This document shows, in pieces, positions 5,799-62,418 of a DNA stretch of 64,000 nt. How positions within the stretch are numbered: position 1 is the stretch's first letter; each line of letters starts with the position of its first letter. The stretch is from positions 124,001 to 188,000 of the forward strand of contig JAUXVD010000008.1 of the NCBI GenBank assembly GCA_030684575.1, written 5' to 3'. A program made the position numbers and the translations under genes. The notes under the pieces were generated by a model. That model did not search any database. It was given only the letters and a program-made list of their open reading frames with translations, and was not told the origin of the DNA. The DNA is from Nitrospirota bacterium. GTDB lineage: Bacteria > Nitrospirota > Nitrospiria > Nitrospirales > Nitrospiraceae.

Positions 5799-6064
5799 AT
5801 CCGCCTCCTTCTTCTTCATCAAGATGTGTAGCCCCACCCTTCACAACACAGGGGGTGGGGCGTCGAAGAAGAAGGCGGGATGGCACTCTCGCGGGGGGCA
5901 GGCCTGAAACGGGAGGGGCCCTCCGGGACGGCACCCGGAAAGGCCTGGCCGCTGCTCTTCAGCGCCAGCTCGCACCCGCTGGGAGTGCAGTCCGAATCCG
6001 ACGCCGGCGGAGACGCGGGCGCATCGTGGGGGGAGGGGGGTGTCGTGAGACTCCCCCGGTTTGT

Positions 6065-6364
6065 ATGTCAATGCTTCTGACCATCAAAGACCTGGCGGAA
6101 CAACTGCGAATTAAACCAGGGACCCTCTATGCCTGGGTGTCACAGCGCAAGATCCCGTGCGTCCGCATTCATGGACTCATTCGATTCCGCCCAGAAGACA
6201 TCGAAGGGTGGCTGATTGGGTTTGCCAAGTACCGACCCACGCTGCCTGACTACAAGAAGCACGGTGGCGACATTGACGAGATCATTGCGGCGGCGAAACG
6301 GGCTATCTATAATCCCCGGCACGGGGAAACCGGACCAGCATTGAGCCCTAGGAAAGGAGAGTGA
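6065..6364 (+). CDS. Helix-turn-helix DNA-binding protein upstream of the integrase (excisionase-like)
   Basis: This 99-residue protein starts with MLLTIKDLAEQLRIKPGTLY and continues with WVSQRKIPCVRIHGLIRF and RPEDIEGWL, the classic HTH_17 arrangement of a helix-turn-helix followed by a winged beta-hairpin. Its TGA stop is immediately followed by the ATG of the integrase gene, so the two are translationally coupled. It is the best candidate for the recombination directionality factor. The ATG at 6065 has no strong ribosome site. The 266 bp before it (5799-6064) are G-rich and contain nothing else I can identify. Confidence 0.65.
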   Translation: MSMLLTIKDLAEQLRIKPGTLYAWVSQRKIPCVRIHGLIRFRPEDIEGWLIGFAKYRPTLPDYKKHGGDIDEIIAAAKRAIYNPRHGETGPALSPRKGE

Positions 6365-7426
6365 ATGGGGCTCTATAGAAGAAATACGGTCTGGTGGATG
6401 AGGTTCAAGTATCACGGTCAGCAGGTGCGACGATCGACGGACACCTCGGATCGGCGATTAGCAGAGGCGATCCTTGCGAAGATCACGGTCGATATCGTGG
6501 AGGGTCGGTACTTTGAGAAACGAGAAGAGCAGGAACGGACGTTTGCGGAGCTGATGGATCGATATCTGAAAGAACATGTTGTGAAACAGATGAGCCAACG
6601 ATCCGTCAGTGGCTATACGAAGAACCTGCTGCCTTTCTTTCAAGGCTCTACCTTGGCTGACATCACGCCGAAGCGCATCGTGGCGTATAAAGCCAAGCGG
6701 TATGCGGATGGGGCGGCTCCGGCCACCATCAACCGTGAGCTCGCCTGCATGAAGAAGGCGTTTAACCTCGCCATCCGGGAGTGGGAGTGGTGCCGGGAAA
6801 ATCCTGTCGCGCGTGTCTCCATGGAAAAAGAGAGAAATAGGCGGGATCGATGGTTGAGCACGGGAGAGGAAGAGCGTCTTCTCCAGGCTGCAAGGCCCTG
6901 GCTCAAGGACATTATTCTGTTCGCACTGAATACAGGCATGCGGATGGGAGAAATTCGAGCGTTGACGTGGGAGGGAGTCGATCTATTCCGAAAAACTGTG
7001 ACCGTCTTTCGGTCAAAGAACGGGGAACGGCGAACCATCCCGATCAACAATCTCGTGCTGGATGTCCTGAAGAGCAAAGCCAAGGTGCGGTCGGTCAAGA
7101 GTGACTACGTGTTCCCGAGTGAAACGTTCACCCTGCTTGACGATAGCCATCTCCGCCGCGCGTTCCGTGGAGCGATGAAGTTGGTCCGTATCGAGAATTT
7201 TCATTTTCATGATCTCAGGCATACCTTTGCCACGAGACTTGTGCAATCAGGGATTGATCTCTACAAGGTTCAATGCCTCTTAGGGCACAAGTCGCCGATC
7301 ATGACCCAGCGCTATGCTCACCACTATCCGGAGAGTCTTCGCGAGGGCGTGGAAATTCTAGAGAGGTACCGTGTGGCTAGCACAAAAAGCACAAATTTAG
7401 CACACGCGGCAGGATCGGCACTCTGA
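6365..7426 (+). CDS. Tyrosine-type site-specific integrase
   Basis: The 353-residue protein has an N-terminal arm and core-binding segment (about residues 1-160) and a catalytic domain with all expected residues: R193 (GMRMGEIR), K218, H282-x-x-R285 (FHDLRHTFATRL), H308 (LLGHKS) and nucleophile Y317 (RYAHH). It belongs to the phage integrase family. AAAGGAGA precedes the ATG, and the start touches the stop of the HTH gene. The gene points at and ends 36 bp before the 3' end of a tRNA-Lys gene, the usual position for integrases that target tRNA 3' ends. Confidence 0.9.
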   Translation: MGLYRRNTVWWMRFKYHGQQVRRSTDTSDRRLAEAILAKITVDIVEGRYFEKREEQERTFAELMDRYLKEHVVKQMSQRSVSGYTKNLLPFFQGSTLADITPKRIVAYKAKRYADGAAPATINRELACMKKAFNLAIREWEWCRENPVARVSMEKERNRRDRWLSTGEEERLLQAARPWLKDIILFALNTGMRMGEIRALTWEGVDLFRKTVTVFRSKNGERRTIPINNLVLDVLKSKAKVRSVKSDYVFPSETFTLLDDSHLRRAFRGAMKLVRIENFHFHDLRHTFATRLVQSGIDLYKVQCLLGHKSPIMTQRYAHHYPESLREGVEILERYRVASTKSTNLAHAAGSAL

Positions 7427-57428: not shown

Positions 57429-58205
57429 TCAGGAACGATCGAGGGAGGGCGGCATGGTCTGAAGCGCCCAGGCCCTGATGCGTGAGAGGTCGGACGACGA
57501 GAGATCCGTGAATTGAATATCGACATGCCAGGTACGGGAGCCGCTCGCGGTCTCAGCTGGTTCTGCTTCGAGACTCTCGCTGGCCAGCACTTTTCCTCGA
57601 ATCGTCAGGGGCGTGTTTTGACCGGAAATGGAAAACGCCAGTACGACGTTCGTTTTTGGTATGAGCTTCGTCGCCGATTCGACTAATGCGCCGACATGGT
57701 TCAGTTGGATGATCATGGCATTATAGTTGAGCCCCTGAGCCGATGCGCGTCCGACCACACTCACCACTGAGTGAATTTTCGTGCGGCGCCGGGCCGGCGT
57801 GAGCATGAGGTCTTGTGCCGTAAGGACCCCAACCGGTTGGTTCTGTTTGGTGACGATCAAGAGCGATGTCCCTGTCGCCATCATGAGGACCGAGGCGTCT
57901 GCTAAGGCCTGGTCGTATTCGATGAATTGCACCGGGCGTGTCATGATCGCCCGGACTTCGATATCGTGCGGTTCGAGCCCTTGCGCGACAACTTTCTTGA
58001 CGATATCGGTCGGCGTCATCAGCCCGAACTGCGCGTCGGTATCCTTCACCAGCAGGCAGGGGGCCTGTTCTCGTTCAAGTAGCAGCGCCGCCTCGCTGAC
58101 GGAAATATCCCCGGGAATTTGCACGACTCCTGGCGTCATCATATGGGCAATCACAGTTGATAAAGGATTGGTTGTCTTGGCAGATGTATCATTGGTGTCC
58201 GACAT
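57429..58205 (-). CDS. CBS-domain pair fused to a PilZ-like domain
   Basis: The 258-residue protein has two CBS motifs (IAHMMTPGVVQIPGD...LMTPTDIVKKVV and VRAIMTRPVQFIEYD...VGVLTAQDLML) that form a Bateman module for adenine nucleotides. A ~120-residue beta-rich C-terminal part follows and resembles a PilZ domain without a clear c-di-GMP motif: RRRTKIHSVV stands where R-x3-R would be, and the D-x-S-x2-G motif is missing. It may link nucleotide levels to motility or envelope control; this is speculative. It is divergent from the MNIO-like gene. Confidence 0.68.
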   Translation of the reverse strand: MSDTNDTSAKTTNPLSTVIAHMMTPGVVQIPGDISVSEAALLLEREQAPCLLVKDTDAQFGLMTPTDIVKKVVAQGLEPHDIEVRAIMTRPVQFIEYDQALADASVLMMATGTSLLIVTKQNQPVGVLTAQDLMLTPARRRTKIHSVVSVVGRASAQGLNYNAMIIQLNHVGALVESATKLIPKTNVVLAFSISGQNTPLTIRGKVLASESLEAEPAETASGSRTWHVDIQFTDLSSSDLSRIRAWALQTMPPSLDRS

Positions 58206-58382
58206 GGGTTCGAGACCATCCTCGATTCGTCCTTGCACGATTCGTGAGGGTTTCGCCCCCGGCGACGTACGTCAAAGTATAGCAGACGGCGCGCCTTCGT
58301 TTGTGGCAAGGGCTTTCCTTGTCAAACAAGGGGTTGAGCGAATAGACTAGGAGAATTGTTCAGGCAGCACAAGGGTGGATTG

Positions 58383-59873
58383 ATGGTCGATCACGATTTG
58401 GTTTTTCAGGACTTTCACTGCCGACTCAGGCCGATCTCTCCGCTGGGGATGGGGCTGTCGGTCGACGTCTACTCCCCCGATGTGTTCGAGCTGGCGACAC
58501 AGCTCAAGGAGCGAGGCCTCCGGCCTGGCTATCTCGAAGTTTTTAAAGCGACCACGACTGCCCTGGCAACGGTTCGACAGGCGCTGCCGGAGATGTCGCT
58601 GGCCTACCATGGGGAAGGCCTCTGGATCACGCAGCCGGATGTTCAGGCCTCTCCATTTTTTCAGCAGGATGTCGGCGAGATGGTCACGCAGCTCAATAGC
58701 ATTCAGAGTCTCTGGCTGAATCATGAATGTGCCATGAAGCAAATGGCAGGCTACTCCTTTGGCACCTATGTGCCGCCACTCTATACGCCGCTGAGCGCCG
58801 AAGTGGTGGCCGACAATATTGCGACGATTCAGGCGGCGATGGATCGACAGGGGCGCCGGGCAGACGGGACCGCGCCACTGTTTCTGTTGGAAATGCCGCC
58901 GCTCACATATTTTTCCCCTGGCACGGTCCCTATCCCTCATTTTTTCCGGCTCGTCACCGCGCGAGTGCCCTGCGGTCTCGTGTTGGATATCGGGCACCTC
59001 TGGACGGTCTATCGCTATACGGCTGCCCGTCGACGAACGTCCCTCGCTCAATTCGTGAAGGAGTTCCTCGACGAATTTCCTCTGGAGCGGGTGGTCGAGA
59101 TCCACGTGGCCGGGCTGGCCTGCCATGAGTCAAGTGATGGGGCTGAGCGGGGGGAGGGGCTTCCTGAATGGATCGACGCCCATGCTGCGCCGATTCCCTC
59201 AGTCCTCTTCACCATGCTCGACCAGGTTCTGGCCCATCCGAACCTCGTGAGCCTCAGGGCGGTGGCGCTTGAAGTGGATACGAAGCCGATCGAGATGATC
59301 GTGGAGGAATATGCGGAGGCCGTTCGGCGTTTCTCACCCGTCGTTCAGCAGGCGATGGCCCGAGGAATGGCAGCGGCATGGCCGATGGACGGGATGCGTC
59401 CTTCATGTTCAGTTCCGAAGCCGATGCACGAGTCTGACCGACAACAGTTGCGTGACGACTATGCGCGTTATGCGCAAATCATCTCAGGGAAAATTCCCGC
59501 TACGGGTCAGGAATGGCAGGCGGTGGCCGCGGATCAGGCAGGGCTCACATCCTATCGGATGTCCTATCTACCCCACGAGATCCTCCATTGGGGAGGAGAC
59601 CTCGTCGAGATGTTTCCCCAGACCTGTAAGCTCCTCGCGGAGCGGGGTGTCTGCCTCACCGAGTTTGTGTCCTTCTGGTTTCGCGCGCCACGCCCGATCA
59701 CGCAGTCCTACGATTTCTTTCTCCTGAAGATCGACCGGTTCCTCGAATTTGTGACGGAGTCTGCGCCGGACGTAGGGATCGCTGCTCAACAGGAAGGCGA
59801 TCAGTTACGACTGGCCTATGCGCAGGCGAATGAAGTCGGAGAACGGGTGCTGGAGATGGAGCCATCCGTATGA
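58383..59873 (+). CDS. DUF692/MNIO-like multinuclear iron oxidase fused to a DUF2063-like partner domain
   Basis: Residues 15-300 of 496 follow the DUF692 (MNIO, MbnB/TglH-type) TIM-barrel: LEVF, H76 (LAYHGEGLW), H114-E115 (LNHE), PPLYTPLSAEVV, E170 (LLEMPP), D202 and H205 (LDIGHL), H241 (EIHVAG), D265 and H267 (DAHAAPI) and E297 (LEVD). All metal-ligand positions appear filled. Residues 310-496 resemble the partner protein that usually accompanies these enzymes (DUF2063/HvfC-BufC): YRMSYLPHEIL, DLVEMFPQTCKLL, LTEFVSFWFRAPRP and DRFLEFV. MNIO enzymes modify cysteines or other residues of RiPP precursor peptides. No precursor gene is adjacent. The ATG at 58383 has AAGG eight bases upstream. 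The dus start overlaps its stop. Confidence 0.75.
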   Translation: MVDHDLVFQDFHCRLRPISPLGMGLSVDVYSPDVFELATQLKERGLRPGYLEVFKATTTALATVRQALPEMSLAYHGEGLWITQPDVQASPFFQQDVGEMVTQLNSIQSLWLNHECAMKQMAGYSFGTYVPPLYTPLSAEVVADNIATIQAAMDRQGRRADGTAPLFLLEMPPLTYFSPGTVPIPHFFRLVTARVPCGLVLDIGHLWTVYRYTAARRRTSLAQFVKEFLDEFPLERVVEIHVAGLACHESSDGAERGEGLPEWIDAHAAPIPSVLFTMLDQVLAHPNLVSLRAVALEVDTKPIEMIVEEYAEAVRRFSPVVQQAMARGMAAAWPMDGMRPSCSVPKPMHESDRQQLRDDYARYAQIISGKIPATGQEWQAVAADQAGLTSYRMSYLPHEILHWGGDLVEMFPQTCKLLAERGVCLTEFVSFWFRAPRPITQSYDFFLLKIDRFLEFVTESAPDVGIAAQQEGDQLRLAYAQANEVGERVLEMEPSV

Positions 59874-61045
59874 GTTTTTGGCAATCGCTCACGGGACCGG
59901 TGATCGGGATGGCGCCCATGGACGGGGTCACCGATGCCACGTTTCGCCATACCGTGGCGATACATGGCCATGCAGACGTCTCCTTCACGGAGTTCACGCA
60001 TGTGCATGACGTCTGCCGTGGGCCGGAGTTTTTGCTGGATTCCCTCATCTATAACGAGGCGGAGCGACCGATCGTCGCGCAGCTCTATGGGAAAGACCCG
60101 GACCTCTTTTATCAGGCTGCCCATGCAGTCTGTGAGTTGGGGTTCGACGGATTGGATATCAACATGGGCTGTCCCTCGCGCAGTGTCGCCTCATCCGGCT
60201 CAGGCGCGGGGCTGATTCGAACGCCGGACGTGGCCCATGCGATCATGCAGGCCGCTCGACGAGGGATTGCCGATTGGGCGGCCGGACAGACCCTGGAGGG
60301 TGCGGGACTCAAGCAGAGTCGAGTGGCGGCCTTCGAGCGGATGAACGAGCAGCGGCAGAACGCTCGCCCGCTTGTCCGCCGGACGATTCCGTTATCCGTC
60401 AAGACACGCCTCGGCTACGATGTCGTCGTCGTCGATCGTTGGATCGAACATCTCCTCATGGAGCAGCCAGCCGTGATCTCCCTGCATGGACGTACCCTGG
60501 AGCAAATGTATCGAGGGGAAGCAGATTGGGCTGCCATTGCGCGGGCGGCAGAGATTGCGCGGGGCAGCGGGACCCTGCTGTTTGGAAACGGCGACGTGCA
60601 TAGTCTCCAGGACGTGGTCCGTCGTGTCCGGGATACCGGGGTCGATGGGGTGTTGGTTGGGCGCGCCGTGCTCGGGGCCCCCTGGTTTTTTCGGCAGAAA
60701 GAGGACGCGCGAATGTTGCTTCAGCAGCAGCTGCCTGGCCGGGGGCCTGAGCCGGTGGTGCCGCCACTCGACGTGCGGTTCGAGATGTTGCTCGATCATG
60801 CCAGACGGTTCGAAGCGGTGAGCGGGACGGGGCAGTTTCGGCGGATGCGTAAACACCTGGGGTGGTACTGCAAAGGGTTCCCTCATGCCGCCTCACTCCG
60901 GGCCAACATGGTCCGAGTCTCGTCGGTCGTCGATGTGGAGCAAGTGCTCGCTGATTTTCGCATGACCTGTATGAGTCTTGAGGAAGGCCCTGAGCAGATC
61001 TCGCTCGAACCCCTAGCCTCCATTGAGTCCTCTTCGGCGTTGTAA
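59870..61045 (+). CDS. tRNA-dihydrouridine synthase family protein
   Basis: The 391-residue protein has the Dus flavin-binding TIM barrel: GMAPMDGVTDATFRH, PIVAQLYGKDPDLF, DINMGCPSRSV with the catalytic cysteine, PLSVKTRLGYD, ISLHGRTLEQMYRG, and FGNGDVHSL...GVLVGRAVLGAPWFF. It reduces uridines in tRNA D-loops with FMN. The segment after the cysteine (ASSGSGAGLI) is unusual compared with VKKGAGSAL. A ~35-residue insertion rich in Ala, Arg and Gln lies near residue 140-175. ATGA overlap couples it to the MNIO-like gene. Confidence 0.88.
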   Translation: MSFWQSLTGPVIGMAPMDGVTDATFRHTVAIHGHADVSFTEFTHVHDVCRGPEFLLDSLIYNEAERPIVAQLYGKDPDLFYQAAHAVCELGFDGLDINMGCPSRSVASSGSGAGLIRTPDVAHAIMQAARRGIADWAAGQTLEGAGLKQSRVAAFERMNEQRQNARPLVRRTIPLSVKTRLGYDVVVVDRWIEHLLMEQPAVISLHGRTLEQMYRGEADWAAIARAAEIARGSGTLLFGNGDVHSLQDVVRRVRDTGVDGVLVGRAVLGAPWFFRQKEDARMLLQQQLPGRGPEPVVPPLDVRFEMLLDHARRFEAVSGTGQFRRMRKHLGWYCKGFPHAASLRANMVRVSSVVDVEQVLADFRMTCMSLEEGPEQISLEPLASIESSSAL

Positions 61046-61678
61046 ATGTCACTCATCCTGGCTTCAACCTCACCGCGCCGTCGCGAGTTGCTCGCATTGC
61101 TGGGCGTCCCCTTCCACGTCGCGAGCCCATCGTTCGAGGAGTTGCTGGTGTCCGGTCTCACCGCGATCGAGCAGGTGCAGTCTTTCGCGCAGGGTAAAGC
61201 GCAGTCGGTCGCGAGGCTCGCGCCAGAAGAGATCGTGTTGGGGAGCGATACGGTCATCGAGCTGGATCATCACGTGCTCGGGAAGCCGGCTGACCTTGTG
61301 GAGGCCCGAGCGATGCTCAGGCGCCTGGCCGGCCGTGACCATCGAGTCCTCACGGCGGTTGCGCTGGTCTGTTCAGCTCCTGCGATGGACGTGGTCGCAC
61401 TCTCCGCAGCGGTCGTCCGGATGAAGCCCTTCGATGAACGACTGCATGAGCACTATCTGGGGACCAGAGAAAGTTTGGGGAAGGCCGGCGCCTATTCGAT
61501 TCAGGGAGCAGGCGGAGACCTGATCGATTCCATTGCTGGCGATTTTCCCACCGTGGTTGGCCTGCCGCTTCGTCTGGTTGCCCAGTTGCTGGCGCAAGCC
61601 GGCGTCAGCCTGCCGGTCGATCTTGAGGAACTGTATGCTGCCAAGCCCTACGCCAACTGGGCTCGCTTCTCGGTCTGA
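61046..61678 (+). CDS. maf: Maf-family nucleoside triphosphate pyrophosphatase
   Basis: The 210-residue protein begins MSLILASTSPRRRELLALLG and has the Maf motifs VLGSDTVIELDHHVLGKP, RDHRVLTAV, the YLGTRESLGKAGAYSIQGAGG active-site segment and a final VVGLPLRLV. Maf proteins hydrolyse non-canonical or canonical NTPs. The ATG directly follows the dus stop, so the three genes from 58383 form one operon. Confidence 0.92.
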   Translation: MSLILASTSPRRRELLALLGVPFHVASPSFEELLVSGLTAIEQVQSFAQGKAQSVARLAPEEIVLGSDTVIELDHHVLGKPADLVEARAMLRRLAGRDHRVLTAVALVCSAPAMDVVALSAAVVRMKPFDERLHEHYLGTRESLGKAGAYSIQGAGGDLIDSIAGDFPTVVGLPLRLVAQLLAQAGVSLPVDLEELYAAKPYANWARFSV

Positions 61679-61746
61679 TTGCAAAGGAGTAGGGGTTTCC
61701 GTACAATACCGCCCCATCATTTGTTGTCTTGTTTACGGAGGACGTT

Positions 61747-62418
61747 ATGAGCGTGCGATGCCTGACATCAGTGGCGCAGGTTGGAGTCGTTGTCACCTGT
61801 GTTGTCGTGGGTCTGCTGACGGTCGTCGGTCCCCAGACGGCCCTGGCGATCGATGTGAAATTATCCGCGGAAGAGGCGCAGAAGGCCTTGGAAGCCGGGC
61901 GGGCGCCGATGGAGAAGGCCAATAGCCCGGAGGACGTCAAGAAAGTTCTTCAGCAAGCTTCCCTGGTGACGCGAGTGGGTGCCGATCCAGAGAAAGATTC
62001 CTGTGGAGCCAGTGCCATCCTCAGGACCAAGCGGTATCGCCTGGAAGCCTTTGGCCGGCAGGAAGCGGCCGAGTCTAAGAAGCGAAAGATGGATGTGCGT
62101 ATGCCCGACGAATTCATCAAGAAAGTCGTGGACATGCCCAATATGGAAATCGAAGTGCAGCTCTGTGGCGATGACGAGTATTTTGCAGAAGGTGCCTTGA
62201 TCGAGTTGCAACAGGGCTCCAAGAAGATCAAGCCCATCGATATCACCAAAGCCGAACGTGGCCGAAAGAATGAAGGCAGTGGACCGGCCTACCGCTCGCG
62301 CTTTACGGCATCGTTCGCGTATGAAAAGTTTGATCCCCAGGCAGCGTCCCTGTTCGTCGTGAATCTTCAGGATGGAAAAGAGGCGAGAATCGCCGCTGAT
62401 TTCTCCAAGGTAAAGTAG
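61747..62418 (+). CDS. Secreted protein of unknown function
   Basis: I do not recognise this 223-residue product. It starts with a signal peptide (VGVVVTCVVVGLLTVVGPQTALA) and continues as a charged soluble domain of about 195 residues with an amphipathic helix (LSAEEAQKALEAGRAP) and strands (MEIEVQLCGDDEYF, ARIAADFSKVK). Two cysteines (DSCGAS and QLCGDD) could form a disulfide in the periplasm. GGAGG lies five bases upstream of the ATG, and a strong terminator follows. Confidence 0.65.
   Translation: MSVRCLTSVAQVGVVVTCVVVGLLTVVGPQTALAIDVKLSAEEAQKALEAGRAPMEKANSPEDVKKVLQQASLVTRVGADPEKDSCGASAILRTKRYRLEAFGRQEAAESKKRKMDVRMPDEFIKKVVDMPNMEIEVQLCGDDEYFAEGALIELQQGSKKIKPIDITKAERGRKNEGSGPAYRSRFTASFAYEKFDPQAASLFVVNLQDGKEARIAADFSKVK

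Follow-up and report, generated by a model that had tools for sequence, protein, structure and literature searches.

To our knowledge, all functionally characterised MNIOs modify dedicated precursors, usually together with a separate partner protein. Two types of partner (PME) are distinguished: type 1 corresponds to DUF2063 (PF09836), and type 2 has a TglI/NGO1945-like helical fold without the DUF2063 signature. In most MNIO systems activity depends on a partner that combines a DUF2063 domain with an RRE, either complete or partial, and the Fe(II)/Fe(III) state, which is the active one, was seen only with the partner present (PMC13419390). HvfB-HvfC and the bufferin system BufB-BufC (DUF692 plus DUF2063) are natural examples in which enzyme and partner are separate proteins, sited with a DUF2282/EGKCG precursor and DoxX. 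An artificial HvfB-HvfC fusion is active and outperforms the co-expressed pair (PMC13419390). Fused domains also occur in nature, as an RRE in MovX and as an extra domain or helical bundle in ChrH (PMC13419390, PMC12636315). In some taxa the C-terminal helical domain of the ChrH/DybH/MelH MNIOs occurs as a protein of its own (PMC12636315); for the ChrH group of Cyanobacteriota, this separate domain is required and one substrate is a 34-kDa secreted protein (PMC12636315). Fused-domain MNIOs, partners lacking the DUF2063 signature and precursors encoded in trans have thus each been described already (PMC12452194, PMC13419390, PMC12636315).

The metal site is compared here with that of TglH. Its Fe1 and Fe2 are bound by His71, His107, Glu151, Asp184, His216 and Glu258, and its Fe3 by Asp184, Asn187, Asp229 and His231 (PMC10880893). 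The H107A and N187A variants lost activity in vitro, but product was still formed in vivo (PMC10880893). VcMbnB has an equivalent ligand set and a proposed general base, Asp240 (PMC8888699).

Here we analyse a gene from a 64,000-nucleotide stretch of a Nitrospirota genome (the window), whose product joins a DUF692 barrel to a helical C-terminal domain in one chain, in the same order as the artificial HvfB-HvfC fusion. For both halves the closest solved structure is TglH-TglI of the 3-thiaglutamate pathway (8hi7/8hi8), with which the protein shares the barrel, seven of nine iron ligands and a W-x-x-x-[H/E]-C context. TglH-TglI differs in consisting of two proteins, in the RRE half of TglI, in the existence of a TglA precursor, and in two ligands, His107 and Asn187, which are Glu and His in the Nitrospira protein. 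MovX is likewise single-chain without a separate partner, but its fused domain is an RRE, whereas that of the Nitrospira protein is predicted to be all-helical (PMC13419390, PMC12636315); the ChrH/DybH/MelH proteins have a smaller bundle (~7.8 kDa) and CPxCGxG precursors in their clusters. In a literature search, outside which most subscription papers fell, neither this fusion nor Nitrospira MNIOs nor these ligand swaps were found to have been described, and the locus possibly represents a new type of MNIO system.

The MNIO barrel and its metal site

The gene is a real, intact open reading frame and is the single DUF692 gene of a 3.79-Mb genome (99.84% complete) whose nearest named relatives are Nitrospira MAGs. 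The features of the locus are given in Table 1. Compared with the homologue at locus L033, the gene shows 27, 12 and 81 differences at the first, second and third codon positions, with 75 synonymous and 36 non-synonymous codons among those that differ; because the codon differences to relatives lie mostly at third positions, the gene is under purifying selection. The homologue at L065 (G044, 6001-7075) is split into two frames and is either a pseudogene or the product of a sequencing error.

Table 1. Features of the fusion gene and its neighbours (positions in the window; n/30, conservation in 30 diverse homologues)
Feature	Position	Strand	Basis or remark
CBS-domain pair with weak PilZ-like domain	57429-58238		divergent from the MNIO gene; beside MNIO in most Nitrospiraceae
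Whole gene, MNIO barrel and C-terminal helical domain, 496 aa	58383..59873	+	intact ORF, intact homologues, purifying selection
DUF692/MNIO TIM-barrel domain, residues 1-320	58383..59342	+	PF05114, PDB profile, TglH Z 15.3, hhalign
His76 = TglH His71 (Fe1 ligand)	58608..58610	+	30/30
Glu115-Cys116; Glu115 at TglH His107 (Fe1), Cys116 = TglH Cys108	58725..58730	+	each 30/30; alignment register
Glu170 = TglH Glu151 (Fe1-Fe2 bridge)	58890..58892	+	30/30
Asp202-Ile-Gly-His205; Asp202 = TglH Asp184, His205 at TglH Asn187 (Fe3)	58986..58997	+	both 30/30; TglH/MbnB alignment
His241 = TglH His216	59103..59105	+	30/30
Asp265, His267 = TglH Asp229, His231 (Fe3)	59175..59183	+	30/30
Glu297 = TglH Glu258; Asp299 = VcMbnB Asp240 (proposed general base; PMC8888699)	59271..59279	+	30/30
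C-terminal all-helical domain (predicted), residues 356-485, partner-like, without RRE	59448..59837	+	model; TglI 8hi7_A; separate ORF in L100
Dihydrouridine synthase	59870..61045	+	ATG overlaps the stop codon of MNIO (ATGA); syntenic only in Nitrospiraceae
Maf protein	61046..61678	+	in MNIO operon
Sec-type secreted protein, unknown family	61729-62418		downstream, same operon

The assignment of the N-terminal ~320 residues to the DUF692/MNIO TIM barrels, already proposed in the preliminary description, is solid. PF05114 (MbnB_TglH_ChrH) matches residues 55-312 with E=4e-13, scoring 49.6 bits where the gathering cut-off is 25, and in hhalign the match with canonical MNIOs of plasmid and Nitrospirota origin has a probability of 99.7% (E 6.7e-27). 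When a profile built from 29 diverse homologues was searched against the PDB, only the DUF692 structures 3bww, TglH and MbnB (E 3e-5, 3e-4 and 0.025) preceded the noise. The full-length AlphaFold model, made from 21 close sequences, is poor (pLDDT 57), among other reasons because this model, like that of the C-terminal domain, was given close homologues only; the best structural matches of this low-confidence barrel are TglH (Foldseek E 2e-5; Z 15.3) and MbnB, with sugar isomerases and Endo IV ranking below TglH at Z about 9 or less. All NCBIfam MNIO equivalog models score far under their cut-offs (15.5 bits against 600 for the ChrH model NF050165), and the protein therefore falls outside all named subfamilies.

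The barrel had been credited with every expected metal ligand, and this stands for seven of the nine positions known from TglH. All four Fe2-site equivalents (Glu170, Asp202, His241, Glu297) are present in 30/30 homologues, and at the Fe1 and Fe3 positions His76, Asp265 and His267 are kept; the two exceptions are the counterparts of His107 and Asn187, replaced in all 30 by Glu115 and His205. Judged by residue type both replacements are metal-capable, and they may change or abolish MNIO chemistry. The equivalence of Glu115 with His107 follows from the gapless alignment of 'SPWVANHC108' of TglH with 'SLWLNHEC116', and the register is identical when bufferin-type MNIOs are aligned by hhalign (SEHL to NHEC). 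His114, considered as an Fe1 ligand, was rejected: it is found in only 26/30 homologues, and in the gap-free alignments to TglH and the bufferin MNIOs the position falls to Glu115.

The C-terminal domain

The preliminary description had likened the C-terminal half to a DUF2063-type partner, a likeness that failed by sequence and persists weakly by structure. This half has no Pfam match, including to the DUF2063 HMM (PF09836), and no PDB match in a profile search; in a Pfam scan of 29 C-terminal members no family occurs in more than one of them and none falls below E 0.007. Aligned by hhalign with 12 DUF2063 partners, its profile gives E 0.015 over 111 columns, a score that unrelated families and cyclic shifts equal, for which reason we discounted a favourable first column-shuffle control. 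With no significant match from the Pfam scan, the PDB profile search or hhalign, an assignment to DUF2063 by sequence was rejected.

The domain (~130 residues) was also modelled separately, with helices only, no strands and a mean pLDDT of 69.7. Among 350,542 PDB chains the best match to this model is TglI (8hi7_A), and it is a weak one (E 0.78, prob 0.69). In VIA-align, 121 residues align with TglI 4-162 at Z 6.2, the next row being an unrelated chain with 81 residues at Z 5.2. Helical bundles often reach Z values of about 6 and match by chance. The weak TglI match is noteworthy because TglI is the partner of TglH, the best match of the barrel itself. The second half of TglI, the region of the RRE-type domain, has no counterpart in the C-terminal model; with a strandless model and only TglI 4-162 aligned, no RRE (winged helix) was found. 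One genome outside the family (G305, locus L100) encodes the barrel in one ORF and the C-terminal domain in a second that overlaps it in another frame, possibly through an assembly frameshift, and the tree places G305 between fused relatives. On the model, the identification of the C-terminal domain as a built-in partner is plausible: the top match to TglI, the partner-like gene order and the split in L100 speak for that part of the earlier proposal. The domain gives no DUF2063 match by sequence and, in the model, has no RRE half.

Neighbourhood and distribution

Among 395 sampled Nitrospirota genomes, 142 carry the fusion family. Split by family in our own count, these are 109 of the 110 sampled Nitrospiraceae (G035 alone lacks it), 11 members of two more families in the same order, a single genome of a further family in the class, and 21 genomes of one family that belongs to a different class. 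Within the Nitrospiraceae the fusion counts as a core gene. Its tree mostly follows taxonomy, the exception being f3 members that lie inside the f1 part; genus g8 of f3 lacks the fusion. Gene order in the Nitrospiraceae is largely frozen (rhomboid, DHH, LOG-like, CBS-PilZ, MNIO, DUS, Maf, secreted protein). In other families its neighbours are gltB-gltD, a pseudouridine synthase of the RsuA type, or genes of the TPR/GGDEF/CheZ-like kind, as named by eye rather than by HMM, so that several unrelated housekeeping neighbourhoods host it.

The three neighbours reported earlier (CBS-PilZ, dihydrouridine synthase and Maf) are indeed there, and the reported lack of a RiPP precursor beside the gene extends to the Nitrospirota loci inspected. 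Among Cys-containing small ORFs within 3.5 kb in 53 loci, with the top clusters inspected, none recurs except shadow ORFs, and the recurring Cys-rich candidates were rejected as shadow ORFs of conserved neighbours. A search of the gene's own genome found no DUF2282, no EGKCG match and no second DUF692; CPxCGxG has five matches there, with no excess over the reversed-pattern control (four). A canonical RiPP cluster is therefore rejected.

Canonical MNIO-DUF2063 pairs are present in 7/61 relatives as extra, separate loci. Four of the seven (L069, L070, L072 and L073, in G009, G033, G026 and G018) are bufferin-type loci, each including DoxX and a precursor resembling DUF2282; the other three genomes (L071, L074, L075) have a second type of pair.

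Discussion

Our preferred reading, to which we give a probability of roughly 55%, is that of a naturally single-chain MNIO which has its own partner domain and whose substrate is encoded in trans. A DUF692 iron barrel would be joined to a partner domain that resembles TglI/DUF2063 proteins in their helical first half and lacks their RRE. We infer iron binding, oxidase activity, the partner role and the substrate from the MbnBC, TglHI and HvfBC systems. On this analogy two or three irons would sit in the barrel, while the C-terminal domain would close off the cavity of the active site and determine the state of the cofactor; the enzyme would then use O2 to oxidise a peptide or protein residue, often a Cys. 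Because there is no RRE, a classical leader peptide would not be used; since no peptide substrate gene adjoins, the substrate is probably encoded elsewhere, and by the same analogy a protein encoded in trans would fit best. A bolder proposal, which we hold only tentatively, is a housekeeping MNIO outside RiPP biosynthesis, in which one chain whose iron site has been rebuilt, Fe1 having Glu and Fe3 His, would modify either a conserved protein of the cell or a substrate that is not a peptide, and would do so in nearly all Nitrospiraceae.

The chief rival to the MNIO reading is that the swapped ligands signal a change of chemistry, the barrel being of DUF692 lineage but binding another metal or catalysing another reaction, for instance as an Endo IV- or sugar-isomerase-like metallohydrolase or isomerase with a small molecule or a nucleic acid as its substrate. 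His205 creates a D-x-x-H motif, which is that of Endo IV and xylose-isomerase-like enzymes, and Glu115 replaces His107; Endo IV and epimerases come after DUF692 proteins in structure searches, no inspected locus of the fusion has a precursor, and in two clades the neighbours are RNA-modification genes (DUS, RsuA-type). We nevertheless consider this unlikely: sequence profiles match DUF692 only, all 30 homologues retain the Glu-x-Asp of MNIOs (Glu297, Asp299), and it is hard to see what a partner-like domain would do in an enzyme of that kind.

The partner role itself would fall if the C-terminal half were an unrelated helical domain, binding for example a membrane, a nucleic acid or a regulator. 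The failure of Pfam to find any family in more than 1/29 members or below E 0.007, the closeness of the controls to the hhalign score against DUF2063 (E 0.015) and the frequency of chance matches between helical bundles all lean that way, but the top chain among 350,542 is the partner of the very enzyme that tops the barrel search, its alignment covers 121 residues against 81 for the next row, and the domain's position matches MNIO-partner gene order; such an unrelated domain seems to us improbable, to about the same degree as changed chemistry. Far less probable still is that the enzyme acts on the secreted protein whose gene lies downstream. That protein shares the operon, its synteny is conserved in the Nitrospiraceae, it has a Sec-type N-terminus and two Cys, and many MNIO substrates bear Sec signals (PMC12452194). 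However, members of the order without the MNIO have homologues of it too, and in other members the homologues lie apart from the MNIO gene, and since it does not track the MNIO we rejected it as a candidate. A distant paralogue of this protein is encoded elsewhere in most Nitrospira genomes.

If the preferred reading is true, a vertically kept, cluster-free single-chain MNIO in nearly all Nitrospiraceae, the family of the nitrite-oxidising Nitrospira, would extend the MNIOs to core physiology. The Nitrospira protein would offer a convenient one-protein system for study of the iron cofactor, and its invariant His-to-Glu and Asn-to-His swaps a direct test of the roles of the Fe1 and Fe3 sites.

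Two further divergent DUF692 proteins were noted. The first, on Piscinibacter gummiphilus plasmid NZ_CP136338.1 (L122:2486-3361), has similar swaps, with Asp at the His107 position and D-x-x-H at Asn187; a carbamoyltransferase gene lies nearby, and the DUF692 gene has a ~1-kb unannotated gap behind it. The second (L068:2306-3202) is a short protein (299-aa frame) with D-x-x-H, encoded in a genome (G034) that also has the fusion.
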